Shown: positions 43,613 through 62,830 of the stretch, piece by piece | How positions within the stretch are numbered: the stretch's first letter is position 1 | Layout of the letters: each line of letters begins with the position of its first letter | Assembly (NCBI GenBank): GCA_004791255.1 | Contig: SRUQ01000005.1 | Span: 258,710-322,709, forward strand | Length of the DNA: 64,000 bases | Direction: 5' to 3' | Origin: a bacterium M00.F.Ca.ET.205.01.1.1 | GTDB taxonomy: Bacteria; Pseudomonadota; Alphaproteobacteria; Rhizobiales; Rhizobiaceae | Position numbers and translations under genes: made by a program | Notes under the pieces: generated by a model | Databases searched by the model: none | Told to the model about the DNA's origin: nothing | Seen by the model: only the letters and a program-made list of their open reading frames with translations

Positions 43613-43629
43613 ACACTGGCAGCAAAGCC

Positions 43630-45522
43630 GTGACGGAAGGGAGAGGGCCGACGCCGCAAGCACGCACCGATAGCGAATCAGCGGGGTTTGCCGGCCGTGA
43701 CCTGCTGCGCGAGGCGGTGGCCCGGCTGCGCGACGGCCGCTGGCTACTTGTCGTGGTTGCGCTCGCGGTGCTGGCCGGCGCGGTTGCCATTGCCGGGCGC
43801 ATCGCCGAGGGTCAGGCTGCCGGCGACCTGCGCGACGGGGCGCTGGCCGCCTTGCCGCTGGCAGCAGGAACCCTGACCGGCGAAATCGAAAAGCAGCGCC
43901 TGGTGCCGCTGGTGCTGGCCCGCGACGATGCGGTGCGTGGGGCGCTACGCCGTGCCGGGAAGATGCAGGAAGCGGCCCTCAACGATAAGCTCAAGGCGAT
44001 CGCCGGCGATGCCTCGGCGTCCGCCATCTACGTCATCGACACGGCGGGCATCGCGATATCGGCCAGCAATGCCGGCCAGCCGGACAGCTTTGTCGGTATC
44101 GACTACAATTTCCGCCACTATTTCCAGCAGGCGATGGCCAGCGGCGCCGCCAGTCAATATGGACTCGGCACCATCAGCGGCCGCCCGGGCCTCTACCTTG
44201 CCAGCCGTGTCGACGATGGCGGCAAGCCGCTTGGCGTCGCGGTGCTGAAGGTCGAACTCGGCGGTGTCGAAGCCAATTGGCGCTCGAGCGGCTTTCTGGT
44301 TTTCGTCACCGATGAACGCGGCGTCGTCCTGGCCACCAGCGAGCCCGACTGGCGGTTCCATGCCTTGGCGCCGCTCTCTGCCGCGGACACCGCCGCTGCC
44401 CATGAGCAGCTGCAATTGACGGGCGCCGCCTTCGAACCATTGCCGGTGCGGCGCGGCAATGGCGACGGTCTCACGACGATCGACGGCGCCGGAAAGTCGC
44501 GCCGCTTCGTCGAGGTGGTGCAGGACCTGCCGGGTGCGGTCCCAGGTTGGCGGCTGTGGCTGCTGACGCCGGCCGATGCGGCGCTGGCGTCCGCCGCCAA
44601 CACGGCGCGCCTGACCACGCTGCTCGGGCTGCTGCTGACCGGCCTGCTGGCCTTCGTGCTCACCCGTCGCCAGCGCACGCGCCGGCTGCGGCAGGAGGCG
44701 CTGGCACGCATGAATGCCGAGCTGGAAAGCCGGGTCAGCACGAGGACGGCCGAACTGACCCGGTCCAATACGGCGCTCGCCGGGGAAATCACCGAACGCG
44801 AAAATGCCGAGGCCAAGGTCCGCCGGCTGCGCGACGATCTCGCCCAGGCCAACCGGCTATCCATCCTCGGCCAGATCGCCGCCGGCGTGGCGCACGAGAT
44901 CAACCAGCCGGTCGCCGCCATCCGCACCTATGCCGAAAATGCCGGCCGTTTTCTCGAAGGCGGCAAGACCGAACCGGCGAGCGGCAATCTGACCTCGATC
45001 GTCTCGATGACCGAACGCATCGGTGCCATCACCAGCACGCTGCGCACCTTCGCCCGCCGGCCGGGCGTGGCGGCCTCGCCATTGCCGGTGCGCGAGGCGA
45101 TCGACGGCGCGCTGTCGCTTCTGTCCGGCCGCATCCGCGATTCCGGCGTCACCATCGTCAAGCCGCGCGGCAGCGCATCGCCGGTGGTGATGGCGAGCCG
45201 CATCCGGCTGGAGCAGATCCTGGTCAATCTGTTGCAGAACGCGCTCGACGCCATGAAGGACCGGCCCGATCCCCGCATCGAGATCGACCTCGCCGAGCGC
45301 GACGACAGGGTGCTGATTTCGGTGCGCGACAACGGTCCCGGCCTCGGTCCGGAAGCGGCCGGCAATCTGTTCATGCCGTTCCAGACCACCAAGGAGAAGG
45401 GGCTTGGGCTCGGGCTGGTGATCTCGCAGGAAATCGCCCAGGAGCTGGGCGGCACGCTGCGGCTCGACCCCGACTACGCCGGCGGCGCATCCTTCACCAT
45501 CGACTTGAGGCGGATCGAATGA
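43630..45522 (+). CDS. dctB: C4-dicarboxylate sensor histidine kinase
   Basis: 630 residues from GTG 43630. A TTG at 43546 gives a longer frame but would encode protein from the DctD enhancer sites, so it is rejected. Membrane segments near residues 39-58 and 326-345 flank a periplasmic double-PAS (dCache-like) sensor. The cytoplasmic part has a coiled-coil ([21 protein letters not shown] region), the phospho-acceptor His422 in GVAHEINQP and ATPase motifs [17 protein letters not shown] and GLGLGLVIS. It senses dicarboxylates and phosphorylates DctD; dctD overlaps its stop. Confidence 0.9.
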
Positions 45523-46910
45523 CGCAGGGATCAGCGCTGGTCGCGCTTGTCGATGACGACGCGGACCTGCTTCACGCCACGACGCAACTGCTCGAACTCG
45601 CCGGCTTCAGCGTGGTTGCGCTGGACGCTGCCGAGGCGGCGCTCGCCGTCGTCGACGAGAATTTTGAGGGCGTCGTGGTCAGCGATATCAGAATGCCTGG
45701 CATGAACGGCCTGCAACTGTTCGACCGCATCAAGGCTGTCGACGCCGACTTGCCGGTGATCCTGGTCACCGGGCATGGTGATGTCGATCTTGCGGTCGCT
45801 GCGCTCAAGGACGGCGCCTACGATTTCATCCCCAAACCCTATGCGGGGGAGCGCCTGGTCGAAGCGCTGACACGGGCAACGGAGAAGCGGCGGCTGGTGA
45901 TGGAGAACCGGCGGCTACGCGAAGCCGCCGCACTGGCTGCCGAAGGCATGCCGCTGATCGGCGAGGCGCTGGCCATCCGGCGGCTGCGCGACACCTTGCG
46001 GCAGATCGCCGACATGGATGTCGACGTGCTGGTGGAAGGCGAGACCGGAACCGGCAAGGAAGTGGTGGCCGACCTGCTGCACCGATGGGGCCGGCGCCGC
46101 GCAAAGCCCTTCGTGGCGCTGAATTGCGGTGCTCTGCCGGAAACCGTCATCGACAGCGAGCTTTTCGGCCACGAGGCGGGGGCGTTCACCGGTGCGCAGC
46201 GGCGGCGGATCGGGCGCGTCGAGCACTCCAGCGGCGGCACGCTGTTCCTTGACGAGATCGAGTCCATGCCGCCGGCCCTGCAGGTCAAGCTGCTTCGGGT
46301 GCTGGAGACGCGCAGCCTCACCCCGCTCGGCTCGAACGAGACAAGGCGTCTCGATCTCAGGGTCGTCGCGGCGACCAAGATCGATCTCGGCCGGCCGGAC
46401 CAGCGCGGCGACTTTCGCGAGGATCTCTATTTTCGCCTCAACGTGGTGACGCTGCGCATCCCGCCGCTGCGCGAACGGCGCGGCGACATCCCTATGCTGT
46501 TCGGGCATTTCCTCGGCAAGGCAGCGGAACGCTTCGGCCGGCCTGTGGCTGCGGTGAATGCCGCGGTGAGCGATTATCTGCAGTCGCATGACTGGCCGGG
46601 CAATGTGCGTGAACTTGCGCATTTCGCCGACCGCGTCGCACTCGGCCTCGGGCCTGAGGACGAAGCCAGGGCGACGACGGCGCATTCGCCGGAGCCCTCG
46701 GCCGCACTGCCCGAGCGCGTCGGCCAATACGAGGCGCAGCTCATCCGCGAGGCGCTGCGCGATCATGGCGGCGACGTGCGCGGCGCCATCGACGCGCTCG
46801 GCGTGCCGCGCAAGACGTTCTACGACAAGCTCAAGCGCTATGGCATCGCCGCATCCGAATTCCGGAATGGCGGCGATCCGGACACGCTGCCTGGTCGCGG
46901 ACAGACATAG
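45519..46910 (+). CDS. dctD: C4-dicarboxylate response regulator, sigma-54 activator
   Basis: 463 residues from the ATG at 45519, which overlaps the dctB stop. Receiver domain with phospho-acceptor Asp56 ([10 protein letters not shown]); AAA+ domain with Walker A GETGTGKE at 174-181 and the sigma-54 contact loop GAFTGA at 221-226; C-terminal Fis-type HTH ([31 protein letters not shown]). It activates the sigma-54 promoter of dctA from the sites at 43564-43612. Complete and of normal length. Confidence 0.95.
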
Positions 46911-46978
46911 AGGTTGCGCCCGGGCAGGGCGCTTCGTAACGCTGCATTTGCATCCACTTGCGCACTACCGGAAGAGCC

Positions 46979-47407
46979 ATGAACACCACGCTCGAAACCA
47001 CGGCAAATCCCTCGCCGGAAGAACTCGCCTTTCTCGGTGAGCGGCTGGCGGCGTTCAACGATAGCGATGTCGGCGCATCCGGACGAAAGGCGCTGGCGGT
47101 GTTCGTGCGCGACGAGGGCGGCGCGGTGGTTGCCGGCATTTCTGGCTACACCGCCTGGGGCTGGCTCTACGTGCAATGGCTGTGGGTCGATGAAAGGCTG
47201 CGTGGCCAGTATATGGCAGGCCGGATGCTGGACGCCGCCGAACAGGAAGCCATTGCGCGTGGCTGCCAAAACGCCTGGATCGACACCTTCAGTCCGGTTG
47301 CCGCCAGGGTCTATCAGCGGCAGGGCTATCAGCCCTTCGGCACGCTGGCCGATTTCCCGGTCGGCCGCAGCCGCATCTTCCTGCAGAAGAAGCTCTCGGC
47401 CGACTAA
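46979..47407 (+). CDS. GNAT-family N-acetyltransferase
   Basis: 142 residues from the ATG at 46979 (GGAAGAG upstream). GNAT core: [41 protein letters not shown] with the acetyl-CoA loop R-x-x-G-x-A variant RGQYMAGRM, then [13 protein letters not shown] as the motif B region. The acceptor is unknown. It stands after dctD with 68 bp between and is convergent with anmK, overlapping its stop by 4 bp. Confidence 0.82.
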
Positions 47408-48519
47408 CCAGCCAGCCGCCCGCCACGCATCGGCTGCGGCGCGCCGGTGGTGCTCGGGAAACTGATCGGAAGGCCGCGCAACACGCGAACCGCGAGGAAA
47501 GCAAAGCACTCCGCTTCGACCGCGTCGCCGCTCCAGCCGAGGCTCTCGGCCAGCAACACCTCGACACCGGCGCGGCTGGCGAGCATTGCCATCATCGTCG
47601 GGTTGTGGCGGCCGCCACCGCTGACCACCAGTCTCTTCGGCCGGCTTGGCAGGAGGTCGAGCGCCTTGCCGACGGCCGAAGCGGTGAAGGCGGTGAGCAG
47701 CGCGGCGCCCTCCTCGGCGTTAAGGCCATCGGCCATGGCGGCACCAAAGTCGAAACGGTCGAGCGACTTCGGATATGCCTTGGTCAAATAAGGATGCTGC
47801 AACAGCTTGGCGAGCCGGGCCTCGTCCACCTTGCCAGCACGGCCCAGCGCACCGTCGCGGTCCATTTCGCCGAGACCTTTTGACTTGATGAAGTCGTTGA
47901 GCGGCGCGTTGGCGGGGCCGGTATCAAAGGCAACGACATTGTCGGCGCCGTCCCACCAGGTGATGTTGGCGACGCCACCGAGATTGAGCACGGCCACCTC
48001 GCCACTGGCGCCGGCGCTGCGCATGAGCGCGGTGTGGTACACAGCGGCCAGCGGCGCGCCTTGCCCGCCGGCGCGCATGTCGGCCGAACGGAAATCATAG
48101 GCGACCTTGGTGCCGAGGATTTTGTGCATCAAATCGCCGTCGCCGAGCTGCCGGGTCTGGCCGAGCCGCCCGACCTGGGGCGCGCGATGCAGCACGGTCT
48201 GGCCGTGGAAGCCGACGACGCCGATATCGGCCATCGTCATGCCAGTGCTCTCGACCAATTCCCTGACCGCCGCCGACTGGGCGCGCGTCAGCGCTTCCTC
48301 AGCCGTCCGGAAGATCGCCGGTTCCGGTCCGGTGAAGTTCCAGCCCCTGGCCGCCGTCAACGTCTCTTCCAGCAAGGAACGGATCGATGAGGGATAAGGC
48401 ATCAGCCGGTAGGTGCCGAAATCCTCGATCCGCTCGCCGTCGGTCTTGATCAGCGCCACGTCGATGTTGCCATCAAGCACGGTGCCGGTCATCAGGCCGA
48501 CGGCCCAGATTGGTTCCAT
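47404..48519 (-). CDS. anmK: Anhydro-N-acetylmuramic acid kinase
   Basis: 371 residues from the ATG at 48519, with AGGGAC upstream; a longer frame would read into a palindromic repeat. ATP-binding loop [16 protein letters not shown] (GLMSGTSxDG in most homologues), catalytic Asp region, [23 protein letters not shown] and [12 protein letters not shown]. It cleaves the 1,6-anhydro ring of anhydro-MurNAc and phosphorylates it to MurNAc-6-P, the substrate of MurQ encoded at 54910. It ends the minus-strand murein-recycling array. Confidence 0.93.
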
Positions 48520-48535
48520 CGTAGAGTCCCTGTTG

Positions 48536-48582
48536 AGCATGATCTCGTCCGATACCTGGTTTCCACTTTTCGGGATCATGCT
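48536..48582. repeat. Palindromic intergenic repeat (rhizobial type)
   Basis: Outer arms AGCATGATC and GATCATGCT are perfect complements around about 29 nt that includes the CCACTTTTCGGGATCATGC-type core widely scattered in rhizobial genomes. It lies between the beta-lactamase-family gene and anmK and contributes the last codons and stop of the upstream gene. It can form an RNA hairpin at the 3' end of that gene. Confidence 0.7.
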
Positions 48583-49586
48583 TTAGCTCCATTCACGATA
48601 TCGCCGACTGCCCGCCGCAGCGAAACGATTCCGCTGTCGAAATGACGTGTCGGATGGATCCGGTTGGTGAGCAAGGTCCATGCCTTGCCCTTGTCGAAGT
48701 CGATCCACAGTCCGGTGCCGGTGAAGCCGGTGTGGCCGATGGTTCCCGGGCTGCACAGCGCGCCGCCGGACCAGCTCTCATAGGGGCGTTCCCAGCCATG
48801 GGTGCGGGTGGCCGACAAGGGCACGCGCATCAGCGCGATCGACTGTTCGGAGGCGCCGCTGCCGTCCAGCAGCCCCTGTGCGAAATCGAGCACCGAGGCG
48901 GCCGTGCCGAACAGGCCGGCATGACCGGCGCCCTGCAGCGCCGAGCAATTGTCGTCATGGACTTCGCCGCAGAGCACTCGATGGCGCCAGCTGCAGTCCT
49001 CGGTCGCGGCTGACGCATCGGGCTCCGCCGACCAGGCAAAGCCGGGACCGGCATCCATGTCCCTGATCGTCTTGCCCGACAGCCGCTCGAGCGCAAAGCC
49101 GAGCAGGATGAAGTTGATGTCGGAATAGACCGGATCGCCCGCCCGCCATTCGCGCTGCAGGATGAAGGCGCGCAAAAGGTCGGGGTCGCGCCCGTAGGTG
49201 TAGACCGGCTCGACCGCAGGGAAGGGCGTCTGGTGGCCGAGGCATTGGCGAAACGTCACCTTCCGCTCCCAGGCTGTCGCATCGTATTGGCGAAGGTCCG
49301 GCATGGCGGAAATCAGCTGTGCGTCGAGATCGGTGATGCCGTCTTCGGCAAGCGCCAGGATGCGCGGCGTGGTGAAGATGACCTTGGTTAGGGATGCCAG
49401 GTCGAACCAGGTTTCAACGCGCATCGGTCGCTGGTTCGGTACCAGTTGGGCAGAGCCGATTGCCTTGATGATGCGGTGGCCATTGCTGTCGACAATGCCG
49501 AGCACGCCGCCGGGAATGCGCTTGGCGGAAACCGCTGTTGCGAGTGGTTGGAACGCGCGGTCGAAGAGTTGGGCGAGGTCGTTCAA
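48576..49586 (-). CDS. Beta-lactamase/PBP-like serine hydrolase (class C/S12 family)
   Basis: 336 residues if started at TTG 49586, which has AGGAGG 7 bp upstream. An in-frame ATG at 49673 would overlap the upstream ATPase gene by 35 bp. Motifs: SLTK with Ser65 and Lys68, YSDINF as the second element, and HTGFTG in place of KTG. There is no signal peptide, so it is probably cytoplasmic. In E. coli the murQ operon contains yfeW of the same S12 family, and Bacillus mur operons also carry one, so a muropeptide amidase, esterase or carboxypeptidase role is inferred. Confidence 0.8.
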
Positions 49587-49638
49587 TGCCGGCCTCCTCT
49601 TGAAAGGCCGCGATCCTTCGCGCCCCAGGCACTGTACA

Positions 49639-51387
49639 TCACGCCTCAACCCTTGCCATATGATCTCTGCCAAATTGCTCCCAGCGCGCCGGCGCCGGTT
49701 CGAACCCCGGTGGCCTTACCAGCGAGGGGATCTGGCGCGTGTCGAGCTCGAAATGCTCACGCCGCCGGTCGATGGTCGGAACGGCGGCGATGAGCTTCTT
49801 CGTATAGGAATGCTTCGGCTTCGACAGCACCGAGGCCGCGTCGCCGATCTCGACGATCTGGCCGGCATAGATGACGGCGATACGGTGGGCGATCCGCTCG
49901 ACCACCGCCATATCGTGCGAGATGAACAGATAGGCGAGTCCAAATTCGCGCTGCAGGTCGACCAGCAGATCCAGCACCATGGCCTGGACCGAGACGTCGA
50001 GCGCGGACACCGCTTCATCGAGGACGACGACCGAAGGGTTGAGCATCAGCGCGCGGGCGATGCATAGCCTCTGCCGCTGGCCGCCGGAAAATTCATGCGG
50101 GTAGCGCGCTAGGCTGGTCCTGGGCAGGCCGACGCGTTCGAGCAGGCTCGCCATCCTGGCTTGCGTCTCGGCATTCACGCGGCCGCCGGTGGCGATCACC
50201 GGCTCGGCCAGGATGCTCTCGATCGTCAGCCTCGGGTTGAGTGAGGCATAGGGGTTCTGGAACACCATCTGCACCGGCCTGGCGCTGCGCGCGGCCGAAG
50301 CCGCCGCGGCGCCCACCGAGAAGCTGCCGCGTGTCGACCGCACCAGCCCCAGCACCGCTTTTGCCGTCGTCGACTTGCCCGAGCCGCTCTCGCCGACGAT
50401 GGCCAGCGTCTCGCCCGGCATCAGGTCGAAATCGACGCCGTCGACCGCGTGCACCGCCCCAGTGGCGTGGCTGAAGAAGCCGCTCTTGAGCGGAAACCGC
50501 ACCACGAGGCCATCGACCTCCAGGGCGGGCTTTGTGCCGGCGTCCTTGTCGCGCTGTCCGTCGGCGCGCGCCGCGCGGCCATTGGCGAAATGCGGCACGG
50601 CGTGCAGCAAATGCTGCGTGTAGGGATGACTGGGATGATCGAGGATCTGGTTCAGTTCGCCCTGTTCGACGGCCTGCCCGTTCTGCATCACCATCACTCT
50701 GTCGGCGATGCCGGCAACCAGGCCGATATCGTGGGTGATGAAGATGACAGACATGCCGGTCTCGCGCTTCAGCTCGGCCAGCAGCGCCATGATCTGCGCC
50801 TGCACGGTGACGTCGAGCGCCGTCGTCGGCTCGTCGGCGATCAGCAGGCGCGGGTTGCAGGCGAGCGCAATGGCGATCATCACCCGTTGCAGCATGCCGC
50901 CCGAGAGCTGGTTGGGCGTGTATTTCAGCCGCCGCGCGGCATCGGGGATGCGCACGCGGTCGAGCGCGTCCCTGGCCGCCGCCGTGGCTTGCCGGCCGGT
51001 CAGGCCGCGATGTAGCCGGAACGATTCCTCGATCTGGGTGCCGATGGTCAAGACCGGATTGAGCGAGGTCATTGGCTCCTGAAATATCATGCCGATCTCG
51101 GCGCCGCGAATGCCAGTTAGTTGCGGTTCGCGCGCGCTCGCCAGGTCGAGCACGGCCGCATTGGCGCGTTTCAGCGCAATGCTGCCGCCAGTGATGCGGC
51201 CGCCGCCGAAATCGATGAGACGGTTGATCGACAGCGCGGTGACGGATTTTCCCGAGCCGCTCTCGCCGACGATGGCCAGCGTCTCGCCATCCGCCAGGTC
51301 GAAGCTGACGCCGCGCACCACCTCATTGGCTCGGGGATCGCGGCCAAAGCCGACGCGCAGGTCGCGGACGGACAGAAGCGGGGTCAT
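49639..51387 (-). CDS. Fused double ATPase of a peptide-type ABC importer (DppD-DppF / YejF-like)
   Basis: 582 residues from the ATG at 51387, overlapping the permease stop as ATGA. Two complete ABC domains in one chain: Walker A GESGSGKS at 41-48 and 332-339, signatures LSGGM (161-165) and FSGGQ (433-437), each with an oligopeptide-type C-terminal segment (HPYTQHLL, KHSYTKKLIAAVP). Fused ATPases are typical of YejF, whose transporter family imports muropeptides in Agrobacterium. Here the gene sits inside a murein-recycling array. Confidence 0.9.
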   Translation of the reverse strand: MTPLLSVRDLRVGFGRDPRANEVVRGVSFDLADGETLAIVGESGSGKSVTALSINRLIDFGGGRITGGSIALKRANAAVLDLASAREPQLTGIRGAEIGMIFQEPMTSLNPVLTIGTQIEESFRLHRGLTGRQATAAARDALDRVRIPDAARRLKYTPNQLSGGMLQRVMIAIALACNPRLLIADEPTTALDVTVQAQIMALLAELKRETGMSVIFITHDIGLVAGIADRVMVMQNGQAVEQGELNQILDHPSHPYTQHLLHAVPHFANGRAARADGQRDKDAGTKPALEVDGLVVRFPLKSGFFSHATGAVHAVDGVDFDLMPGETLAIVGESGSGKSTTAKAVLGLVRSTRGSFSVGAAAASAARSARPVQMVFQNPYASLNPRLTIESILAEPVIATGGRVNAETQARMASLLERVGLPRTSLARYPHEFSGGQRQRLCIARALMLNPSVVVLDEAVSALDVSVQAMVLDLLVDLQREFGLAYLFISHDMAVVERIAHRIAVIYAGQIVEIGDAASVLSKPKHSYTKKLIAAVPTIDRRREHFELDTRQIPSLVRPPGFEPAPARWEQFGRDHMARVEA

Positions 51388-52226
51388 GCCAACGCTCTCC
51401 GCGTCTTCGGATCGAGTATGTCGCGCAAGGCGTCGCCCAACAGGTTGAAGCCAAGAATGCTGATCATGATCGCCAGGCCGGGGAAGATCATCAGCCATGG
51501 CGCGGTTTCCATGAGGTTGCGGCTATCGCTCAGCATCAGGCCGAGCGAGGCCGCGGGCGGCTGCGTGCCGAGCCCAAGGAAGCTCAGGCCGGCCTCGGTC
51601 AGCAGCGCCCAGGCCAATGCCAGCGTCACCTGCACGGTCAACGGCGCCACCAGATTGAGCAACAGGTGGCGTGTCACGATATAGCTCGGGCTGCTGCCGA
51701 AGGTGCGCGCGGCGTCGACGAATTCGCGTGCTTTCAGCGACAAAGCAGGGCCGCGCACGACGCGGGTGAAGATCGGCGTGTAGACGATCCCGATGGCAAC
51801 GACGCTGGTCCAGGTGCCCGGTCCGGCAACGGTGACGATGAGCAGCGCCAGAAGGATGGCCGGGAAAGCCAGAAGCACATCCATGATGCGCATCACAATG
51901 CCGTCCCAGCGCCGCCCGAGCCAGGCGGCGGCAAGCCCCATTACCGTACCGGCAAGCGTGGCGAAGGCGACCGAGAAGAAGGCGACCGTGAAGGATTGGC
52001 CGATGCCCGCCATCAGCCGGCTGGCGACGTCGCGGCCGAACAAATCGGTGCCCATCCAGTAGGCGGCGCTGGGCGCATGCAGCCGGTCGATACGGTATTG
52101 CGTGATCGGATTGTGCGGCGTCAGCCCCAGCAGGCCGAGGAGCGCGAGCAGCAGGTAAACGCCGACGATGACGCCGCCGATGCGGCCGCTGCCATGGCCA
52201 AAGATGGCGCGCAGGATGCGCTTCAT
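51384..52226 (-). CDS. Peptide-type ABC importer permease (DppC family)
   Basis: 280 residues, about six spans. DppC-type features: N-terminal HNPITQYRIDRLHAPSAAYWMGTDLFGRDVASRL and the coupling loop EFVDAARTFGSSPSYIVTRHLLLN, with GLGTQPPAASLGLML late. It forms the channel with the DppB-type protein. Start and stop overlap both neighbours by 4 bp. Confidence 0.9.
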   Translation of the reverse strand: MKRILRAIFGHGSGRIGGVIVGVYLLLALLGLLGLTPHNPITQYRIDRLHAPSAAYWMGTDLFGRDVASRLMAGIGQSFTVAFFSVAFATLAGTVMGLAAAWLGRRWDGIVMRIMDVLLAFPAILLALLIVTVAGPGTWTSVVAIGIVYTPIFTRVVRGPALSLKAREFVDAARTFGSSPSYIVTRHLLLNLVAPLTVQVTLALAWALLTEAGLSFLGLGTQPPAASLGLMLSDSRNLMETAPWLMIFPGLAIMISILGFNLLGDALRDILDPKTRRALA

Positions 52227-53182
52227 TGCTCCCCCAGCCGGATGCGCGGATCGAGCGCGACATAGGCGAGGTCGACCAGGAGATTGACGATCATGAAGTT
52301 GAAGGCGATGAACAGCACGGCTCCCTGCACCAGCGCGTAGTCGCGCTGCAGGATGGCGTCCAGCACCATGCGTCCAAGGCCGGGCAGGGCGTAAATCTGC
52401 TCGACGATGACGGCGCCGCCCAGCAGGTAGCCGAACTCGATACCACCAAGCGTTACCACCGGGATCAGCGCATTGGGCAGAGCGTGCCGCCAGATGACGC
52501 TGCGCGCCGATGCGCCCTTGCTGCGTGCCGTGCGCACATAGTCGTCGCTCAAAACGTCGAGCATGGCCGAACGTGCTATGCGGGTGACCGAGGCGGCGAA
52601 AGCAAAGCCGAGCGTGATCGCCGGCAGGATCAACTGGCTGAGATTGCGCAGCGGATCCTGCCAGAGCGGCGCGAACTCACCCATCGCCGGCAGCACGCCG
52701 AAACCGGCCGACAGCGTGTAGATGATCAACAGGCCAAGCACGAAGCTCGGCGTCGACTGGCCGATCATGGCGACGATGCGGACCCCGAGGTCGGACGGTT
52801 TTTCGCTATGCGTGGCGGCGTAGATGCCCGCCGGCAGGCCGACCGCCAGGGCGATGATCATCGACAGGATGGCCAGCTCCAGCGTCAGCGGGAAACGCTC
52901 GAGGATGACGTCGAGAACCGGCCTGCCATAGGTGACGGAGATGCCGAAATTGCCGTGCAGGATGCCGCCGATCCAGCGCCAGTACTGGACGAACCAGGGT
53001 TGGTCGATGCCGAAATAGGCGGCAAGCGCATCCCGCTGCGCCGGCGTCAGCAGGCCGGCCTCTGTGCCGAGCATCGCCGTGATCGAATCGCCCGGCACCA
53101 TCCGGATCGCGACGAAGACCAGGATGGACACGCCAAGCAGGACGAGAGGAAACGTCGCCAGCCGTCGCAAGAGATAGTTCAC
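52223..53182 (-). CDS. Peptide-type ABC importer permease (DppB family)
   Basis: 319 residues from GTG 53182 with GAGAGG upstream. DppB family: MNYLLRRLATFPLVLLGVSILVF at the N-terminus, the large periplasmic loop after residue 30, and the coupling loop SDDYVRTARSKGASARSVIWRHALPNALIPVV. It follows the binding-protein gene by 37 bp. Confidence 0.9.
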   Translation of the reverse strand: MNYLLRRLATFPLVLLGVSILVFVAIRMVPGDSITAMLGTEAGLLTPAQRDALAAYFGIDQPWFVQYWRWIGGILHGNFGISVTYGRPVLDVILERFPLTLELAILSMIIALAVGLPAGIYAATHSEKPSDLGVRIVAMIGQSTPSFVLGLLIIYTLSAGFGVLPAMGEFAPLWQDPLRNLSQLILPAITLGFAFAASVTRIARSAMLDVLSDDYVRTARSKGASARSVIWRHALPNALIPVVTLGGIEFGYLLGGAVIVEQIYALPGLGRMVLDAILQRDYALVQGAVLFIAFNFMIVNLLVDLAYVALDPRIRLGEQ

Positions 53183-53219
53183 GCGCAGAAGACCTCTCGT
53201 CCCGTTGCCGAAGCCGACG

Positions 53220-54737
53220 CTACTGGATCGTCACCTTGCTCAGGCTGAACAGCGTGCCTGTCGGCGTCGGCACGAACCCGGCGATGTTCTTCTGCTGCGC
53301 CGTATAGCTGTAGGAAGTGTAGAGCCAGATCCAGGGCGACATTTCGGCGAGATGCTTCTCGAACTCGGCGAAGATCGCCTTGCGTTTTGCCGGGTCGGTC
53401 TCGGCGCGTCCCTTCTGCATCAGGCTGTCCAGCGTGTCGTCGATGTAGTTCGCCACCTTCTGCAGATTGCCTGCCTTGGTCCAGTAGCGGTTGTACATGG
53501 TGTAGGGGTCGGCGCGGCCGCCATTCAGCGCGACCGCCATGTCGAAATTGCCCTTCAGCCAGGCGTCGACATAGACGTTGAGCTCCATCATCTTGATGTC
53601 GAGCTTGACGCCGATTTCGGCCAGCTGCGACTGGATCACCTGGGCCTCCGCCGCCGCCGTCGGCGGCTCGCCGGTGGCGCCGATCACGGTCGCCGAAAAG
53701 CCGTCGGCAAAGCCGGCCTCGGCCATCAGCTTCTTGGCCTTCTCGACATCGCGCTTGTAGCAGAACAGCTCGCTTGGATCGGTTGCCAGCGCCGGGATGG
53801 TCAGCGGTCCGGTGACCTTGCCTTCGCCGAGCGAAGCGGTGTCCAGCACGTCTTGCCGGTCGATGGCGCAGGAGATCGCCTGCCGCACCTTGAGCTCCGT
53901 CATCGGCTTGCGCGACGGATTGAGCTGCAGCACGTGATAGGCAAGCACCGGCACGCGGTTAAGCTGCAGGCTGGCTTCCTTCGGCACCAGCGTGGCGACC
54001 AGCGGGTCGTTGAGCAGCGCGAAATCGATCTGCTTGGTGCGCATTGCGGCCAGGATCGCCGCCTCGTCGGGCAGCACGCTGATCTCGATGCTGTCGACGC
54101 CGGTCGGGCCGCCGGCCCAGTCCTTGTTGGCGCTCAAGACTTCCTTGGCATTGGGGTCCCATTTGTCGAGCTTGAACGGACCCGAACCAACCGCCTTTGT
54201 GCCGATCGAGCCGGCCTTGACTTCAGCCGCCGGCACGATGGCGGCGTTGACGTCGCTCATCGCCGTCAGGATCGGCACGTCGGGCTGCGACAGATGAAAC
54301 ACGACGGTGCCAGCATCCGGCGTGTCGATGCTGGCGATCGACAGGAAGTTGGCGCGCGCTGCAGCGCTCGTCTTTTCGTCGAGGATGCGTTCGAACGAGG
54401 CCTTGACGTCGGCCGAGGTCACGGCCGCGCCGTCCTGGAACTTCGCCTTGGGATCGAGCTTGAAGGTCAGCTCCTTGCCGTCCTTGGAAAACTCCCAGGA
54501 CGTGGCGATGGCGGGCACGATCTGCAGGCTGGCATCGACGCGCACCAGCGGCTCGTAGATCAGCTCCAGCAGCCGCAGCGAGGAAAAAGCGGTCTGCTTG
54601 TGCGGGTCAAGCCCGGTGGCGTCCTGCGACCAGGCCATGTGCAGCGTCGCGGCACTCGCCTGCGTCGAAACCGCTTCCACGCCAAGCATCGCGGCAAAGG
54701 TGATGCCCGACAGCAGCCTGCTTGTAAGATGAACCAT
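53220..54737 (-). CDS. Peptide-type ABC importer binding protein (SBP_bac_5 family)
   Basis: 505 residues from the ATG at 54737 with GGGAG upstream. The signal peptide ends near residue 29 (QASA before ATLHMAW). The mature protein is a DppA/OppA-type cluster C binding protein (IYEPLVRVDASLQIVPAIATSWEFSKDGKELTFKL). It would bind the imported ligand, proposed here to be a muropeptide or anhydro-muropeptide because murQ lies immediately upstream and anmK downstream. Dipeptide or other ligands cannot be excluded. Confidence 0.88.
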   Translation of the reverse strand: MVHLTSRLLSGITFAAMLGVEAVSTQASAATLHMAWSQDATGLDPHKQTAFSSLRLLELIYEPLVRVDASLQIVPAIATSWEFSKDGKELTFKLDPKAKFQDGAAVTSADVKASFERILDEKTSAAARANFLSIASIDTPDAGTVVFHLSQPDVPILTAMSDVNAAIVPAAEVKAGSIGTKAVGSGPFKLDKWDPNAKEVLSANKDWAGGPTGVDSIEISVLPDEAAILAAMRTKQIDFALLNDPLVATLVPKEASLQLNRVPVLAYHVLQLNPSRKPMTELKVRQAISCAIDRQDVLDTASLGEGKVTGPLTIPALATDPSELFCYKRDVEKAKKLMAEAGFADGFSATVIGATGEPPTAAAEAQVIQSQLAEIGVKLDIKMMELNVYVDAWLKGNFDMAVALNGGRADPYTMYNRYWTKAGNLQKVANYIDDTLDSLMQKGRAETDPAKRKAIFAEFEKHLAEMSPWIWLYTSYSYTAQQKNIAGFVPTPTGTLFSLSKVTIQ

Positions 54738-54827
54738 TCTCGTCTCCCATTCTTTGAACATGATGCCTTGCAGTTTCCGCGGACCGCTTCCAAGGCACAC
54801 ATGCTTTGGACTATCGGCCCAGTCTAA

Positions 54828-54929
54828 GCGGCTTCACGCCGTCTTGTCCCATCCGGCCTCCGGCCGTGTTGTCTTCAAGCGGCCCCAGGCCGTCTTGTCC
54901 CTTGCGGCTTCAGGCCGGCCTGTCGCCGA
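54828..54929. repeat. Four imperfect tandem copies of a 25-26 bp hairpin-forming unit
   Basis: Copies start at 54828, 54853, 54879 and 54904. Each has a short inverted repeat such as CGGCCTCCGGCCG or CGGCCCCAGGCCG followed by TCTTGTCCC or a variant. The fourth copy supplies the final codons and stop of murQ. The other three fill the gap between murQ and the binding-protein gene. Confidence 0.75.
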
Positions 54930-55833
54930 TTGCCTTTCTCAGAAATCCTCCGGCTCTGCCGAGGGCGGCGCGCGCCGCCTCGACGTCGAGACCGGTGGTG
55001 GTCATCAGGATCGACAGCTTCACGTCATTGCCGGTGCGCTCGAGCGCCTGTCGCGCCTGCGCTGCTGTACAGCCGGTCGTCTGCATGACGATCCTGATTG
55101 CTCTCGCGACCAGCTTCCTGTTCGACGGGTTCAGGTCGACCATCAGGTTCTGGTAGCTCTTGCCGATGCGGATCATCGAGGCCGTGCTCAGCATGTTCAG
55201 CACCAGCTTCTGCGCGGTTCCCGATTTCAGCCGGGTCGAGCCGGTGAGCACTTCCGGGCCGACGACAGGCGAGATGGCGATATCGGCGATGCCGGCAATG
55301 GTCGATGCCGGATTGCACGACAGGGCGACCGTGGTGGCGCCGACCTGTTTTGCATAGGTCAGTCCGCCGATGACATAGGGCGTGCGCCCGCTGACAGCGA
55401 TGCCGACGATCACATCGTCCGGCGTGAGCCCGATCTCCTGCAATGCCTTGGCGCCCATTTTCGGGTCATCCTCGGCGCCTTCAAGGGACCGCACCAGCGC
55501 GTCGGAACCGCCGGCGATCAGCCCGACGACCATGCCTTCCGGCACGCCGAAGGTCGGCGGGCATTCCGATGCGTCGAGCACACCCAGCCGGCCGCTGGTG
55601 CCGGCGCCCATATAGATCAGCCGGGCGCCTTTCTGGAAGGCGCGCACGATCCGGTCGACAGCGGCGGCGATCTCCGGCACGACCTTCTCGACGGCGGCCG
55701 GAACGATCCGGTCCTCGTCATTGATCCTGCGCAGCACGTCGATGGTCGCCAGCAGGTCGATATCCATTGTCCGCGGATTGCGGCCTTCGGAAACCAGCCG
55801 GTCCAGTTCGGACATCAAACCTTGCTCGGTCAT
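54910..55833 (-). CDS. murQ: N-acetylmuramic acid 6-phosphate etherase
   Basis: 307 residues of normal length. SIS domain with [31 protein letters not shown] and the C-terminal helical part. MurQ splits the lactyl ether of MurNAc-6-P to GlcNAc-6-P and D-lactate in the cytoplasm. Its substrate would come from AnmK or the adjacent kinase. A 15-bp palindrome shared with the rpiR/murA region lies 75 bp upstream of its start, so it likely begins its own transcript running through the ABC genes to anmK. Its stop lies in a tandem repeat. Confidence 0.95.
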
Positions 55834-55875
55834 TCCAGTGCTTTCAGCGCGCCGCCATTCTTCGTTAACTTTTTA

Positions 55876-55888
55876 GAATTGGATATTC
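55876..55888. promoter_or_regulatory. Degenerate second RpiR-type site before murQ
   Basis: GAATTGGATATTC keeps the GAAT/ATTC arms and matches the core of the main palindrome at 10 of 13 positions. Its centre is 33 bp from that palindrome, about three helical turns, so two regulator dimers could bind the same face. Confidence 0.4.
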
Positions 55889-55907
55889 GAATGGTCAACA
55901 AAAAGTT

Positions 55908-55922
55908 GGAATAAAATATTCC
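55908..55922. promoter_or_regulatory. RpiR/MurR operator candidate before murQ
   Basis: GGAATA-AAA-TATTCC, two perfect 6-bp arms. Its reverse complement is exactly the 15-mer at 58153-58167 in the murA/rpiR intergenic region. An exact match of a symmetric 15-mer at two promoters of one pathway is strong evidence for a shared regulator. Confidence 0.8.
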
Positions 55923-55936
55923 TACCCCGATCGGAG

Positions 55937-56815
55937 CTAACCTCCGGCGAGCGACCGCCTGGCGAGAATAATTGCCCCCGACACGGCGTCACCGTCGGCC
56001 GGTTTCAGGCGCCGCCGCACATCGGGGGAAAGCCAGGGTTCGAGCGGGCTGGAAAGGCCACCGAGCAAGGTCACGCGCGGCGCGCCTTTTTCGAACAGCA
56101 CCCGCACCAGCGTGTCGATCTGTTCGGCGGCACCTTGCACGATGCGGCGTCCGGCGGGATCGCCCTGGTCGGCATGGCGCATCACCATTGGCGCCAGTGC
56201 CGCATAGTCGGTGGCGCTGGCGCGGTCCATCCAGGCAACCGCTTCCATCGGGTCGTCCTGGAAGCGCTGCATCACTTCGCTCAGCAGCGCCGTGCGCTCG
56301 TGGCGGTCGTCATGCGCGCGCAGCGCCAGTTGCACGGCCTTCAGGCCTAGGTCGGCGCCGCTGCCTTCATCTGAGATCGGAAAGCCGTAGCCGCCGGCGC
56401 GCAGGTCGCGGCCCTCGACGAAGCCGAGGCCGATCGAGCCCGTGCCGGCAATGACGATGGCGCCATCCCTACCGGAATGCGCGCCAAGGCAGGCTCCGAT
56501 GCCGTCGCTGACGAAGCCGATGCTGGCGAAGGGATGCGCGATCGCTCTCAGCGCTTCCAGCGCGCCCTTGCGGCCGATCCCGGCAAGGCCGATGCCGGCA
56601 TGAATGCGGGCAATCTCGGCGGCTCCAAATCCTGCCTCCTCGATCGCCGCACCAAACGCCTTCGCAACCGAGGCCCAGGCCGCCTCGATGCCGAGCCGCG
56701 TCGAAGCCGGACCGGACAGGCCTTGTCCGAGCACGACGCCTTGCGCATCCTCGATGCGTGCCCGGCAGCCGGTGCCGCCGCCGTCGACACCGAGAAAATA
56801 GGGCTCGCCGCTCAT
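55937..56815 (-). CDS. BadF/BadG/BcrA/BcrD-family amino-sugar kinase (GlcNAc/MurNAc kinase-like)
   Basis: 292 residues. ASKHA-type ATPase with phosphate 1 loop DGGGTGCR at residues 11-18, IVIAGTGSIG as phosphate 2, and ISDEGSGADLG. This family includes mammalian and bacterial GlcNAc kinases and the clostridial MurK that phosphorylates MurNAc and GlcNAc. The gene lies between murA and murQ, overlapping murA by 4 bp, so it most likely makes GlcNAc-6-P or MurNAc-6-P from salvaged murein sugars. Confidence 0.85.
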   Translation of the reverse strand: MSGEPYFLGVDGGGTGCRARIEDAQGVVLGQGLSGPASTRLGIEAAWASVAKAFGAAIEEAGFGAAEIARIHAGIGLAGIGRKGALEALRAIAHPFASIGFVSDGIGACLGAHSGRDGAIVIAGTGSIGLGFVEGRDLRAGGYGFPISDEGSGADLGLKAVQLALRAHDDRHERTALLSEVMQRFQDDPMEAVAWMDRASATDYAALAPMVMRHADQGDPAGRRIVQGAAEQIDTLVRVLFEKGAPRVTLLGGLSSPLEPWLSPDVRRRLKPADGDAVSGAIILARRSLAGG

Positions 56816-58068
56816 GCGCTCAGCCGCTCGATATCGGCGCCGCAGAGGCGCAGCTTGCGGTCGAGTTGTTCATAGCCGCGGTCGAGATGGTAGACGCGGT
56901 TGATCATCGTCTCGCCTTCCGACACCAGCGCCGCCAGCACCAGCGAGACCGAGGCGCGCAGATCCGTCGCCATCACCTGCGCCCCGTGCAACCGCTCGCC
57001 GCCGCGCACCAGCGCCATTGTGCCCTGCAGCTTGATGTTGGCACCGAGCCGCATCAGCTCGGGCACATGCATGAAGCGGTTCTCGAAGATGGTTTCGCGC
57101 AGCAGCGACGCGCCTTCGGCGCAGCACATCAGCGCCATGAACTGCGCCTGGAGATCGGTGGGAAACCCCGGATAGGGTTCGGTCGTGACATCGGCGGCCT
57201 TGAGCGGCCGGTCGCGTGACACGATGAGCCCGCGGTCGCCGGGCCAGACGCTGACGCCGGTGGCCTCCAGCGACTGCACCACCGAGGCCATGTGTTCGAG
57301 CCGAGCGTGGGTGAGTTCCAACTGGCCGCCGGTGATGGCCGCGGCGATGGCATAGGTGCCGGCCTCGATCCGGTCAGGGATGATGTCGTGCCTGGCCGGG
57401 CGCCAGCTTGTGTCGCCGGCGATCAGAATGCGGTGCGTGCCGGCACCCTCGATGCGCGCGCCCATGGCGTTGAGGCAAGCGGCGAGGTCGGCCACTTCAG
57501 GCTCGCGCGCCGCGTTGAGGATCTCGGTTTCGCCCTTGGCCATGGTTGCCGCCATCATGGCGGTTTCCGTCGCCCCGACTGATGGCGAGCTGAGCACGAT
57601 GCGCGTGCCGGTCAGCCCGTTCGGCGTCGAGGCGACGATCAGGCCGCTCTCGATGGCAATCCTGGCGCCGAGTGCGGCGAGTGCGGCGACATGCATGTCG
57701 ACCGGCCGCGCGCCGATCGCGCAGCCGCCCGGCAACGAAACCCGCGCATGGCCGAAGCGCGCCAGCAACGGCGCCAGCACCAGCACCGTCGCCCGCATCT
57801 TTCTCACCGTGTCGTAGGAAGTCTCCTTGGAGACCGCTCCACTGGTGTCGATCGTCGCGCCATGCGCCGACCGCGTCACTTCGGCGCCATGCAGCCGCAC
57901 CACGCCGAGCATGTTTTCCACGTCGGTCACATCAGGCAGGTTGGCAAGTTCGAGCGGGTAGGGGCTGAGCAGGGCGGCCGCGATCTGCGGCAAGGCCGCA
58001 TTCTTGGCGCCGGAGATCGTCACCGCGCCTTCCAGCCTGCGTCCGCCGACAATGCGCAATCTGTCCAT
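56812..58068 (-). CDS. murA: UDP-N-acetylglucosamine 1-carboxyvinyltransferase (paralogue in recycling operon)
   Basis: 418 residues from the ATG at 58068 (GGAG 8 bp upstream, N-terminus MDRLRIVGG); an ATG two codons earlier is too close to the ribosome site. Lys22-Asn23 in ISGAKNAALP and catalytic Cys116 in PGGCAIGA are present, so it should be active and fosfomycin-sensitive. MurA adds enolpyruvate to UDP-GlcNAc, the first committed murein precursor step. Its place at the head of a recycling operon under an RpiR regulator suggests a second, inducible MurA; whether a housekeeping copy exists lies outside the window. Confidence 0.9.
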   Translation of the reverse strand: MDRLRIVGGRRLEGAVTISGAKNAALPQIAAALLSPYPLELANLPDVTDVENMLGVVRLHGAEVTRSAHGATIDTSGAVSKETSYDTVRKMRATVLVLAPLLARFGHARVSLPGGCAIGARPVDMHVAALAALGARIAIESGLIVASTPNGLTGTRIVLSSPSVGATETAMMAATMAKGETEILNAAREPEVADLAACLNAMGARIEGAGTHRILIAGDTSWRPARHDIIPDRIEAGTYAIAAAITGGQLELTHARLEHMASVVQSLEATGVSVWPGDRGLIVSRDRPLKAADVTTEPYPGFPTDLQAQFMALMCCAEGASLLRETIFENRFMHVPELMRLGANIKLQGTMALVRGGERLHGAQVMATDLRASVSLVLAALVSEGETMINRVYHLDRGYEQLDRKLRLCGADIERLSA

Positions 58069-58152
58069 CACCATGGCTCCGCCACGACTGCCGGCCTAGG
58101 GCCGGCTCACGTCGAGAATTAATTCAGCGTTCTTGGCTGTCAATGAAATCTG

Positions 58153-58167
58153 GAATATTTTATTCCT
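58153..58167. promoter_or_regulatory. RpiR/MurR operator candidate in the murA/rpiR divergent promoter
   Basis: GGAATA-TTT-TATTCC, the exact reverse complement of the 15-mer at 55908-55922. It lies 35 bp before the rpiR start and 85 bp before the murA start, so one bound dimer could repress both. A further perfect palindrome GAATTAATTC is at 58116-58125. Confidence 0.8.
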
Positions 58168-58201
58168 CTGTTGTGGAGCACCGAAGCGCTCAAGAGGGTT
58201 C

Positions 58202-59062
58202 ATGTCCGTTCTGAAGAAGATCACTGCGAAGCTCGACGGCATGGCGGCCGGCGATCGCGAGATCGGCCAGTACATCGTCGACAATCCCGACCAGATGCTG
58301 CGCCTGTCTACGGCCGCCCTTGCGGCCGAGATCGGGCGCAGCCAGTCGAGCGTGGTCAAGTTCAGCCAGAAGCTCGGCTATGCCAGCTATCAGGAGCTCA
58401 AGCTCGCCATCAGCGAGGCCAAGTCGCGGGACTGGCAAATGCCGGCCGGCGTCATCCACGGTTCGATCGAGGTCGGCGACGGTTTTCCCGTCATCCTGAA
58501 GAAGCTGATCGGCAGCAAGCTTCTGTCGATGCAGCAGACTGTCGCCGCCAACAGCGACCGCATCCTCTCCCGGACGCTGGAATTGCTCGACGGCGCGCGC
58601 CGCATCCATCTGGTCGGCGTCGGCGCTTCCTCGCTGGTGGCGCGCGATTTCTCCTACAAGCTGATGAAGCTCGGCCGCAATGTCCTGCATGACAGCGACA
58701 GCCACATCCAGATGGCCAATGCCTCGACGCTGGGGCCCGACGACGTGCTGTTTGCGCTTTCCTATTCCGGCGCCAGCATCGAAACCTTGCGCATCGCCGA
58801 GCTTGCCAGCAAGCGCGGCGCAATGGTGATCGCCGTCACCGGCCTGCACGACAATCCGTTGAGCCGTGTCGCCGACATCCGCCTCTACACCATCGCCGAC
58901 GAGGAGCGGGCGCGCTCTTCGTCCATCACGGCGCGCGACGCGCAACTGACGCTGACCGACCTGCTGTTCATTCTGCTGGTGCAGAGGCAGCCGGACGCCA
59001 ACGACTATGTCCACAACAGCGAGGTGGCCGTTTCGGTGTTGAAGGCAGAGCGGTCCTCATAG
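58202..59062 (+). CDS. RpiR-family regulator, MurR-like
   Basis: 286 residues from the ATG at 58202. N-terminal RpiR HTH (about 1-78: DREIGQYIVDNPDQMLRLSTAALAAEIGRSQSSVVKFSQKLGYASYQELKLAI) and a C-terminal SIS sugar-phosphate-binding domain (about 125-260: GVGASSLVARDFSYKLMKLG, LSYSGASIETLRIA). E. coli MurR of this family represses murQP and responds to MurNAc-6-P. Divergence from murA and the shared palindromes make it the likely controller of the whole murein-recycling array. Confidence 0.88.
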   Translation: MSVLKKITAKLDGMAAGDREIGQYIVDNPDQMLRLSTAALAAEIGRSQSSVVKFSQKLGYASYQELKLAISEAKSRDWQMPAGVIHGSIEVGDGFPVILKKLIGSKLLSMQQTVAANSDRILSRTLELLDGARRIHLVGVGASSLVARDFSYKLMKLGRNVLHDSDSHIQMANASTLGPDDVLFALSYSGASIETLRIAELASKRGAMVIAVTGLHDNPLSRVADIRLYTIADEERARSSSITARDAQLTLTDLLFILLVQRQPDANDYVHNSEVAVSVLKAERSS

Positions 59063-61408: not shown

Positions 61409-61792
61409 TGGCGGGCGCTACTTCATTGGTTCTGAAATCTGCCCTGACGACACACGCCGCAGACAATCAGGGACATGATAGACGCTTCGATCGTTGCACG
61501 GCAAGAAGGCGTCATCCTCCAGGCGGTTCTTCGGGCGAACCTTTCCAATCGCCATGGGCCTGGTTGCCCAGCTCATGCTTTCGCATCGGGCGTCCGGCGG
61601 CTCCGCCGCACCATGAATTGGCGTCTTACAAATCTTGACCTTTCCCGCACTTGCACGCGCCGCCGCTCTCTGGCTTTTTGAGACACCCATCCGGGCGGAC
61701 TGATTCGCGTCAGGTCGCCTTGCGGCGATCGTGGTTTTCCCGCTGCGATCAGGATGGGCGTGAAGCGCGAGCGGTTGGCGAAGGAGAAGAGC
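61409..61792. other. 384-bp intergenic region, no gene recognised
   Basis: It separates the GntR-family gene (minus) from ftsZ2 (plus) and must hold both promoters. Short frames exist on both strands, but none has a ribosome site with family-like content. It contains a small GGCGGC/GCCGCC hairpin near 61600 and a weak GGAG site at its right end that serves ftsZ2. I see no RNA gene or repeat. Confidence 0.5.
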
Positions 61793-62830
61793 ATGGCCGA
61801 GTTCAAGAAGCCCGAGATCTCCGAGATGAGACCAAAGATCACCGTTATCGGCGTCGGCGGCGGTGGTGGCAACGCCATCAACAACATGATCACCGAACAG
61901 CTTCAAGGCACTGAATTCATTGCCGCCAACACCGATGCCCAGGCGTTGACCATGTCGAAAGCGACGCGGCTGATCCAGCTTGGCGCCCACGTCACCGAGG
62001 GGCTCGGCGCGGGATCGCTGCCCGAGATCGGCCGGGCCGCGGCCGAGGAATCGCTGGACGAGATCATGGACCATTTGGCCGGCACGCATATGTGCTTCGT
62101 CACCGCCGGAATGGGCGGCGGCACCGGGACCGGGGCCGCCCCGATCATCGCCCAGGCGGCACGCAAGGCCGGCATCCTGACGGTCGGCGTCGTCACCAAG
62201 CCGTTCACCTTCGAGGGCCGGCGCCGCATGCAGATGGCCGAGGAAGGCATCGAGCGGCTGCGCGAAAGCGCCGACACGGTGATCGTCATCCCCAACCAGA
62301 ACCTGTTCCGGATCGCCGACGCCAAGACCACCTTCGCCGACGCCTTCGTCATCGCCGACCGGGTCCTTTTTGCCGGCGTCAGCTGCATCACCGACCTCAT
62401 CGTCAAGGAGGGCCTGATCAATCTCGACTTCGCCGACGTCAAATCGGTGATGCGCGGCATGGGCCGCGCGATGATGGGAACCGGCGAGGCATCGGGCGAG
62501 AGCCGGGCAATGAAGGCGGCGGAAGCCGCGATCGCCAACCCGTTGCTCGACGAAATGTCGATGAAGGGCGCCAAGGGCGTCCTGGTCTCGATCTCCGGCG
62601 GCCGGGACATGACCCTGTTCGAAGTCGACGAGGCCGCCACCCGCATCCGCGAAGAGGTCTATGAGGAGGCCGACATCATCGTCGGCGCCATCTTCGACAA
62701 GAGCATGGAAGGCCGCTTCAGAGTCTCGGTGGTGGCGACAGGGCTCGATCGTGCAGTCGGTGCGGAGGCCGCCGAGGCCGGCATCGCGCATGACCGCGCC
62801 GGCCAGTCGCCATTGCGGACGCTGCAGTAA
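61793..62830 (+). CDS. ftsZ2: FtsZ2-type tubulin-like GTPase lacking the C-terminal tail
   Basis: 345 residues from the ATG at 61793 (GGAG 8 bp upstream). GTP-binding site: [19 protein letters not shown], tubulin signature GGGTGTG at 108-114, and T7 synergy loop NLDFADV at 210-216, all intact. It ends shortly after the globular domain ([10 protein letters not shown]), with no linker and no conserved FtsA/ZipA-binding C-terminal peptide. Such a short second FtsZ is known in Sinorhizobium and related genera, where it is dispensable. No ftsA/ftsQ neighbours are present, so this is not the dcw copy. Confidence 0.9.

Follow-up and report, generated by a model that had tools for sequence, protein, structure and literature searches.

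How would bacteria without the MurP phosphotransferase system (PTS) take up N-acetylmuramic acid (MurNAc), or the wall fragments that carry it? The question is raised by a block of ten genes at positions 47404–59062 of a 64,000-nucleotide stretch (the window) from the bacterium M00.F.Ca.ET.205.01.1.1 of the Rhizobiaceae (contig SRUQ01000005.1, positions 258,710–322,709), where a family-5 ATP-binding cassette (ABC) importer stands among murein and amino-sugar genes. S. coelicolor recycles MurNAc and has no MurP ortholog according to the available text of PMC5061867. M. smegmatis has MurQ, AnmK and MurK, and the available text of a preprint leaves MurNAc import in mycobacteria to an 'unknown transporter' (PMC13041923). 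The block is a concrete candidate for this step in bacteria without MurP, accompanied by a regulator, an operator and downstream enzymes. Judging from its genes, we think it probable that it is an inducible operon pair for scavenging murein fragments through an ABC importer. Its features, and the gene that meets its end, are as follows.

58202–59062, + strand: RpiR-family regulator (HTH_6 and SIS; Pfam/NCBIfam)
58152–58166: operator 1, GGAATATTTTATTCC (GGAATA-N3-TATTCC), rpiR–murA intergenic, then TTGACA on the murA strand
56812–58074, − strand: second MurA, UDP-N-acetylglucosamine (GlcNAc) enolpyruvyl transferase (TIGR01072, 536 bits; cut-off 393)
55937–56815, − strand: BadF-type amino-sugar kinase, NagK/MurK-like (nearest model NagK_SO3507, 261 bits, below the cut-off of 370)
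55908–55922: operator 2, the same palindrome without mismatch, some 75 nt before murQ, then TTGAC
54910–55833, − strand: MurQ, MurNAc-6-phosphate etherase (TIGR00274, 417 bits; cut-off 302)
53220–54737, − strand: family-5 substrate-binding protein (SBP), signal peptide judged by eye (SBP_bac_5, PF00496, 285 bits)
52223–53182, − strand: ABC permease B, Opp2B/DppB-like (BPD_transp_1)
51384–52226, − strand: ABC permease C, DppC/NikC-like (BPD_transp_1)
49639–51387, − strand: fused double ABC ATPase, GsiA-like (ABC_tran and oligo_HPY stretches, two of each; open reading frame (ORF) listed to 51498)
48576–49586, − strand: S12 (beta-lactamase-family) serine hydrolase (PF00144, 103 bits; SLTK, YSD and HTG motifs; ORF listed to 49673)
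47404–48579, − strand: AnmK, anhydro-MurNAc kinase (486 bits; cut-off 352), the genome's sole copy
46958–47407, + strand: GNAT acetyltransferase, convergent with anmK and overlapping its end

Linkage in close relatives

All ten block proteins were scored against NCBIfam and Pfam. The scans bear out the layout proposed by the sequence-only reading: nine genes share one orientation and rpiR diverges from them. Its coordinates are also right, apart from four starts. That of the SBP moves to about 54737 and that of the ATPase to 51387, a coupled start; the hydrolase probably begins at 49586, preceded by GAGGAGG, and rpiR likely at ATG 58202. A TTG at 58133, from which the rpiR frame is open, was dropped because operator 1 would fall within that coding extension. 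The spacing of the genes ranges from an overlap of 4 bases to a gap of about 170, the widest, between murQ and the SBP gene. No PTS gene is found among the ten by NCBIfam and Pfam, and Rfam and tRNA scans of the window gave no matches. The host is Mesorhizobium-like, with an SBP 92–96% identical to many Mesorhizobium loci; Rhizobium tropici CIAT 899 has an SBP ortholog as well (L183).

An SBP scan of species genomes gave 78 distinct loci, from the best 80 of 92 relatives. Counting loci whose contig reaches far enough, at identity thresholds of 30–50% and irrespective of orientation, the SBP gene has beside it murQ in 77/78, both permeases in 76/76, the ATPase in 73/74, the S12 gene in 68/70, anmK in 69/70 and rpiR in 69/74. 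The second murA and the kinase are each present in 65/75, and the convergent GNAT gene in 56/69. One locus (L080) is uninformative, its contig ending just after the SBP gene; in another (L082) the S12 gene is under the identity threshold, yet detected by Pfam. As far as their contigs extend, loci titled Devosia and Rhodobacteraceae keep the order murQ-SBP-permease-permease-ATPase-S12-anmK; in several (L047, L065, L068 and L070) murA and the kinase have been dropped.

Some of these data weigh against the scavenging reading. The 78 loci were picked by close SBP similarity and 44 are titled Mesorhizobium; they are not independent, and distant loci were therefore weighed most. L024 is without S12 and anmK, and L082 shows no ATPase match beside the SBP gene. 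The expectation that synteny with murQ would persist stands for close relatives, but in 2/10 SBP-bearing genomes of the order sample this murQ is not nearby. G535 has the SBP block and no murQ within the 28 kb read; G583 offers no more than a different, MurQ-like gene that scores 287 bits (cut-off 302) and lies some 6 kb off. Looked at from the other side, 16 further MurQ contexts from the class sample were read, all among its stronger matches and several cut by contig ends, and 15 have no match to the SBP. Only L115 combines murQ and anmK with ABC ATPases and a family-5 SBP.

A shared operator

Both palindromes in the window are exact, and shuffled sequence yields 0.49 sites even at ≤2 mismatches. 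The 78 loci hold 134 sites with ≤1 mismatch, every one of them (134/134) before rpiR/murA or before murQ. TTGAC follows the operator by 6–9 nt in 130/134, and therefore one promoter layout is common to both operons. The view that the importer lies within an RpiR-linked murQ regulon thus gains from the operator before murA and murQ, together with the synteny. No operator copy was found before the GNAT gene.

The operator follows the regulator's ancestry, being kept with orthologous RpiR and missing with divergent RpiR. Where RpiR is at least 55% identical, the murQ site is present in 66/66 loci and the murA site in 62/66; none of the three loci with a divergent RpiR (31–35%) has either. The nine loci without an rpiR match have a murQ site in six cases and no site in three.

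In the block's own genome there are three exact copies, two of them at the block. Among its operator matches we set aside one that has a GC-rich spacer and lies between CpsA-like and IbpB-like genes (C221:92954), one at the 3′ end of an ORF (C11:210069) and one within an ORF (C188:723952); further matches are C188:501953 and C199:136046. Nine SBP-bearing relatives carry ten exact copies, nine at the SBP–murQ system and one elsewhere in G583, and seven relatives without the SBP carry one in total. G535 has none. The sole exact operator of G583 fronts an RpiR gene (59% identity). Divergent from this gene are an Opp-type ABC system and a gene for a NagZ-like protein, which scores 205 bits (cut-off 207). 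In G391 both parts occur together, in the order rpiR | murQ-NagZ-like-ABC-epimerase-rpiR | SBP block. These RpiR/operator/NagZ-like units connect the operator with murein metabolism outside the window as well.

This unit, in which RpiR and operator are joined by a NagZ-like hydrolase and a second ABC system of the Opp type, spans 1640–9172 of L179 (G583) and 1058–10931 of L171 (G391). This second ABC system possibly serves GlcNAc-MurNAc disaccharides.

Gain, loss and spread of the unit

At a presence threshold of E ≤1e-120, and with the own genome counted in, the SBP occurs in 10/297 genomes sampled from the order and 4/8 of the genus. In G590 the corresponding site retains the response regulator, GNAT, anmK, glnA, gntR and ftsZ-family genes at 85–95% identity to the window, and everything from rpiR through S12 is missing, the importer being absent along with murQ. 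Of the seven relatives without the SBP, G487, G590 and G610 keep a window-type AnmK (82–91%) and GNAT; the other four have a different AnmK (38–40%). Because anmK-GNAT persists without the block in the first three, we take the unit gained or lost to be rpiR-murA-kinase-murQ-SBP-permeases-ATPase-S12, and the anmK-GNAT pair next to it to be resident.

The GNAT gene stays by anmK in most loci, including these three importer-less ones, and is near anmK in Mariluticola. Its substrate may be an amino sugar or the peptide of one.

The remaining recycling genes bear on what the block is for. A true YejB (543 bits, cut-off 445) lies elsewhere in the genome, as do two adjacent genes, one MurU-like and one TsaE-APH (AmgK-like). 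The MurU match reaches 158 bits against a cut-off of 250; that cut-off is not decisive, because the control from Caulobacter, reported to have MurU in the available text of PMC13046382 and PMC11980594, also misses it. NagZ, AmpD-like, NagA and NagB-II genes are likewise outside the block. A separate amino-sugar locus (L096, G000:C110:246000–262000) holds a second MurQ-like gene (329 bits to PRK05441) and, diverging from it, kinase-gntR-nagB-II-nagA, the kinase being nagK; a sugar ABC SBP is nearby. No AmpG is found among the ten block genes by NCBIfam and Pfam, the rest of the genome not having been searched for AmpG or YepA. The YejB-like permease frame at G000:C110:157257–158075 has one in-frame TGA and is a probable broken paralog.

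The sequence-only reading had taken the block for a complete, single dedicated system and had implied own-wall recycling as its main role. Its claims to completeness and singleness give way to the NagZ, AmpD-like, NagA and NagB-II genes outside the block and to an AnmK, the genome's only one, that persists in relatives without it. The role in recycling fares no better, since MurU-like and AmgK-like genes are present and the block is missing from 4/8 same-genus genomes. Replacement of AmpG or YejBEF-YepA by the block in this lineage would suit the origin of anhydro-MurNAc in the cell's own wall and the place of anmK in the operon, and a lack of AmpG at the level of the order is reported in the available text of PMC9790009. 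We nevertheless consider it unlikely, given the YejB, MurU-like, AmgK-like, AmpD-like and NagZ genes elsewhere and the sparse distribution of the SBP. In Agrobacterium, own-wall recycling runs through YejBEF-YepA and AnmK-MupP-AmgK-MurU, as far as the available text of PMC9790009 describes it. Since the genome also has YejB and MurU/AmgK-like genes, and the block is accessory, we take the block to provide an additional catabolic route, inducible and for scavenging rather than housekeeping. If true, rhizobia would put wall fragments to two separate uses, own-wall recycling (Yej, AmgK-MurU) and, in soil and nodules, inducible feeding on the walls of others.

The same gene set recurs at much greater distance. 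SBPs 41–42% identical to that of the window occur in Nonomuraea and Embleya (Actinomycetota), MurQ-bearing like S. coelicolor and M. smegmatis, and one at 54% on an Anaerolineae contig (Chloroflexota). The orders differ: rpiR | SBP-permease-permease-murQ-anmK-S12-ATPase in Nonomuraea, epimerase-anmK-S12 | SBP-permease-permease-ATPase-ATPase-rpiR-murQ in Embleya, and SBP-permease-permease-S12-anmK-murQ, with no ATPase match beside it, on the Anaerolineae contig, which belongs to a metagenome-assembled genome where misbinning is possible. AnmK of the two actinomycete loci fits a different subfamily model; from this we infer that the gene set came together, or was rearranged, on more than one occasion with the same importer at its centre.

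In a plasmid collection SBP similarity shows a gap, with 17 records at 41–82% identity followed by nine at 31–36%. Eight of the 17 were read, and murQ is present in 8/8. Six of the nine were read. Three of these, from Alphaproteobacteria, show the murein link once more, with genes of the GntR family: in Chelatococcus the SBP accompanies murQ/nagA/kinase/murA, in Terrarubrum murQ/nagA, and in Mariluticola anmK/S12/DgcA racemase, with no murQ in the stretch read. The anmK and S12 of Mariluticola are 76% and 73% identical to those of the window, though its importer is of the other subfamily. By contrast with these, none of three Deinococcus SBP loci (about 33%) is murein-linked; two lie beside peptidases and DUF1028 genes, one of the two with a MurR/RpiR-family gene.

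The Deinococcus loci are what an ordinary nutritional peptide importer, standing beside murQ by chance or through shared regulation only, would lead one to expect, and every subunit does belong to a general Dpp/Opp/Nik/Gsi family. Such an account has to accommodate a linkage kept in three phyla under differing gene orders and AnmK subfamilies, an operator common to importer and murQ, and their joint absence at the G590 site; we regard it as very improbable. Judged by gene neighbourhoods, the murQ–importer linkage is more than chance.

Importer, hydrolase and candidate ligand

The importer has the composition of a PepT-type ABC system: SBP_bac_5, two BPD_transp_1 permeases (PF00528, 104 and 147 bits) and an ABC ATPase with oligo_HPY (PF00005, 198 bits; PF08352, 62 bits). 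The model nearest to the ATPase is GsiA (681 bits, cut-off 1077), and the SBP is well below every equivalog cut-off listed. The label 'YejF-type' does not suit it: against YejB the permease scores 111.6 bits, where 445 are required, and against YejF the ATPase scores 540 (cut-off 834).

Among solved structures the SBP is nearest to AgaA (187 bits), whose ligand class we take to be of the opine kind, and then to other peptide- or opine-type SBPs; it scores 81 bits against murein-peptide-binding chains. Its segment Asn405-Gly406-Gly407-Arg408-x-Asp410-Pro411 stands where DppA has WTGDNGDP. NGGRxDP is found at 405–411 in all eight sequences aligned, L080 and L082 among them. Outside the alphaproteobacterial main family, residues 405–407 are NGG or NAG in 7/8 murein-linked SBPs compared (L082, L115, L186, L187, L189, L190 and L193), and in 0/3 of the Deinococcus SBPs, which have WIG or ESG instead. 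The Asn-Gly-Gly segment may serve as a lead on the ligand, not as proof. At the position that binds the alpha-amino group in Dpp, the SBP does not have Asp; in Dpp and Opp this Asp presumably grips the free amino end of the peptide, an end that a MurNAc-peptide would be without.

The S12 hydrolase starts without a signal peptide and therefore acts inside the cell. Its SLTK, YSD and HTG motifs are kept in 18/20 loci, the exceptions being L064, without the first pattern, and L005, a partial sequence. Its best model is PBP4B (55.9 bits, cut-off 385), against which the Actinomycetota partners score 93 and 86 bits. The predicted structure, with a predicted local distance difference test (pLDDT) score of 78.6, matches DD-peptidase R61, esterases, D-amino acid amidase and class C enzymes, at 12–20% identity in the rows listed, and so picks no single activity. 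An epimerase-type gene also adjoins the block in Embleya, and DgcA in Mariluticola. Together, the cytosolic hydrolase and the epimerase/DgcA neighbours suggest that peptide enters with the sugar; the presence of MurQ, AnmK and the kinase suggests that the sugar would be MurNAc or anhydroMurNAc.

The scavenging route would then run as follows. The secreted SBP would capture a fragment that contains MurNAc, most likely as MurNAc or anhydroMurNAc with a peptide attached and possibly as a free amino sugar, which the permease pair and the fused ATPase would import. In the cytosol the S12 hydrolase would remove or trim the peptide; a role like that of AmiE, itself an S12-type protein, as a MurNAc-L-Ala amidase is a guess. 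Phosphorylation would fall to AnmK for the anhydro sugar or, for MurNAc/GlcNAc, to the BadF-type kinase; this kinase also resembles a solved MurNAc/GlcNAc kinase, more weakly (83 bits). MurQ would split MurNAc-6-P into GlcNAc-6-P and D-lactate, and NagA and NagB-II, encoded elsewhere, would complete the breakdown. RpiR would bind GGAATA-N3-TATTCC before murA-kinase and before murQ-importer-S12; as to effector and direction, it would probably resemble E. coli MurR in being relieved by MurNAc-6-P. The second MurA, 54% identical to the genome's other MurA, looks like a normal enzyme and retains the active-site Cys, which we assume to be its catalytic residue; it perhaps maintains precursor flow while etherase activity is high.

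An importer of free amino sugars (MurNAc, anhydroMurNAc, GlcNAc or GlcNAc-MurNAc), with peptides cut off outside and the S12 protein doing something else, is possible, though we stop short of calling it probable. MurQ, AnmK and the MurK/NagK-like kinase all use peptide-free sugars, and the missing Asp and the kinship to AgaA would fit it as well. It leaves the hydrolase, which without a signal peptide should have an intracellular substrate, and the epimerase or DgcA-type genes that recur beside the block in some lineages to be explained otherwise.

Murein-fragment importers of the major facilitator superfamily (AmpG), PTS (MurP) and ABC (Yej-YepA, Opp-MppA) types are already known, and by the defining tests made for the Yej, Opp-MppA and MurP systems the block importer falls outside all three. 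MppA-OppBCDF of E. coli imports murein tripeptide and shares with the block a family-5 SBP and Dpp/Opp-type permeases; the block differs in the SBP's 81 bits to murein-peptide-binding chains, in an ATPase below the OppF equivalog cut-off (458 bits against 540) and in its linkage to amino-sugar genes, not only peptide genes. The E. coli MurR-MurQ-MurP-YfeW (PBP4B) divergon, described in the available text of PMC5061867, has in common with the block a divergent regulator of the RpiR type, MurQ and a gene for an S12-type hydrolase, which in E. coli is PBP4B. Unlike it, the block has a family-5 ABC importer in place of the MurP PTS, adds AnmK, a separate kinase and a second MurA, and encodes a regulator that belongs to the RpiR family at 180 bits to the MurR equivalog NF012026 (cut-off 408) and an S12 protein only distantly PBP4B-like (56/385 bits). 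The B. subtilis murQRP-amiE-nagZ-ybbC operon also joins MurQ, a regulator and a transporter, and has a MurNAc-L-Ala amidase gene; it differs in its PTS transporter and extracellular degradation, and no AnmK figures in its description in the available text of PMC5061867. Agrobacterium YejBEF-YepA, of the same order, is likewise an ABC importer of murein fragments with a peptide-type SBP (PMC9790009, available in part). The block departs from it in permease and ATPase scores below the Yej cut-offs and in sharing an operator and linkage with murQ, and Agrobacterium uses AnmK-MupP-AmgK-MurU by the same partial account.

More broadly, these loci may represent an undescribed class of MurNAc/muropeptide ABC importers, RpiR- and GntR-linked, in Alphaproteobacteria, Actinomycetota and Chloroflexota. 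Most would have Asn-(Gly/Ala)-Gly where DppA has Trp-Thr-Gly-Asp; the class would supply the missing inner-membrane step of MurNAc uptake in MurQ/AnmK bacteria without MurP and AmpG, with the S12 protein as a cytosolic MurNAc-peptide amidase. We hold this wider proposal to be evenly balanced. No description of a murQ-linked family-5 ABC importer was found among the papers listed from open-licence full-text literature, which misses most subscription papers.

To the unfavourable points of linkage given above, others must be added. The NagZ-linked SBP of G583 (L179) has neither NGG nor NAG, and family-5 binding proteins take many ligands, among them peptides, opines, nickel and heme. A predicted SBP structure (mean pLDDT 52.7) was too poor for pocket inspection and was set aside. 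Epimerase- or racemase-type neighbours are few, at 6/110 loci (L069, L070, L082 and L171–L173), of which only L172 is shown above the DgcA cut-off. The block itself is without NagZ, a known-type amidase or LD-carboxypeptidase; AnmK, found in 16/17 relatives, is not exclusive to it; and the place of the second MurA in the route is tentative.

Three further features of the window lie around the block. The third gene past rpiR belongs to the FtsZ family (61754–62830, + strand; 410 bits, cut-off 295) and is kept at the block-less site of G590. A sensor kinase/NtrC-type response regulator pair (43546–46910, + strand) adjoins the GNAT gene, the kinase having PgtB as its best model, far below the cut-off. 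Positions 32001–36000 have a G+C content of 0.59–0.60, compared with about 0.65 elsewhere.

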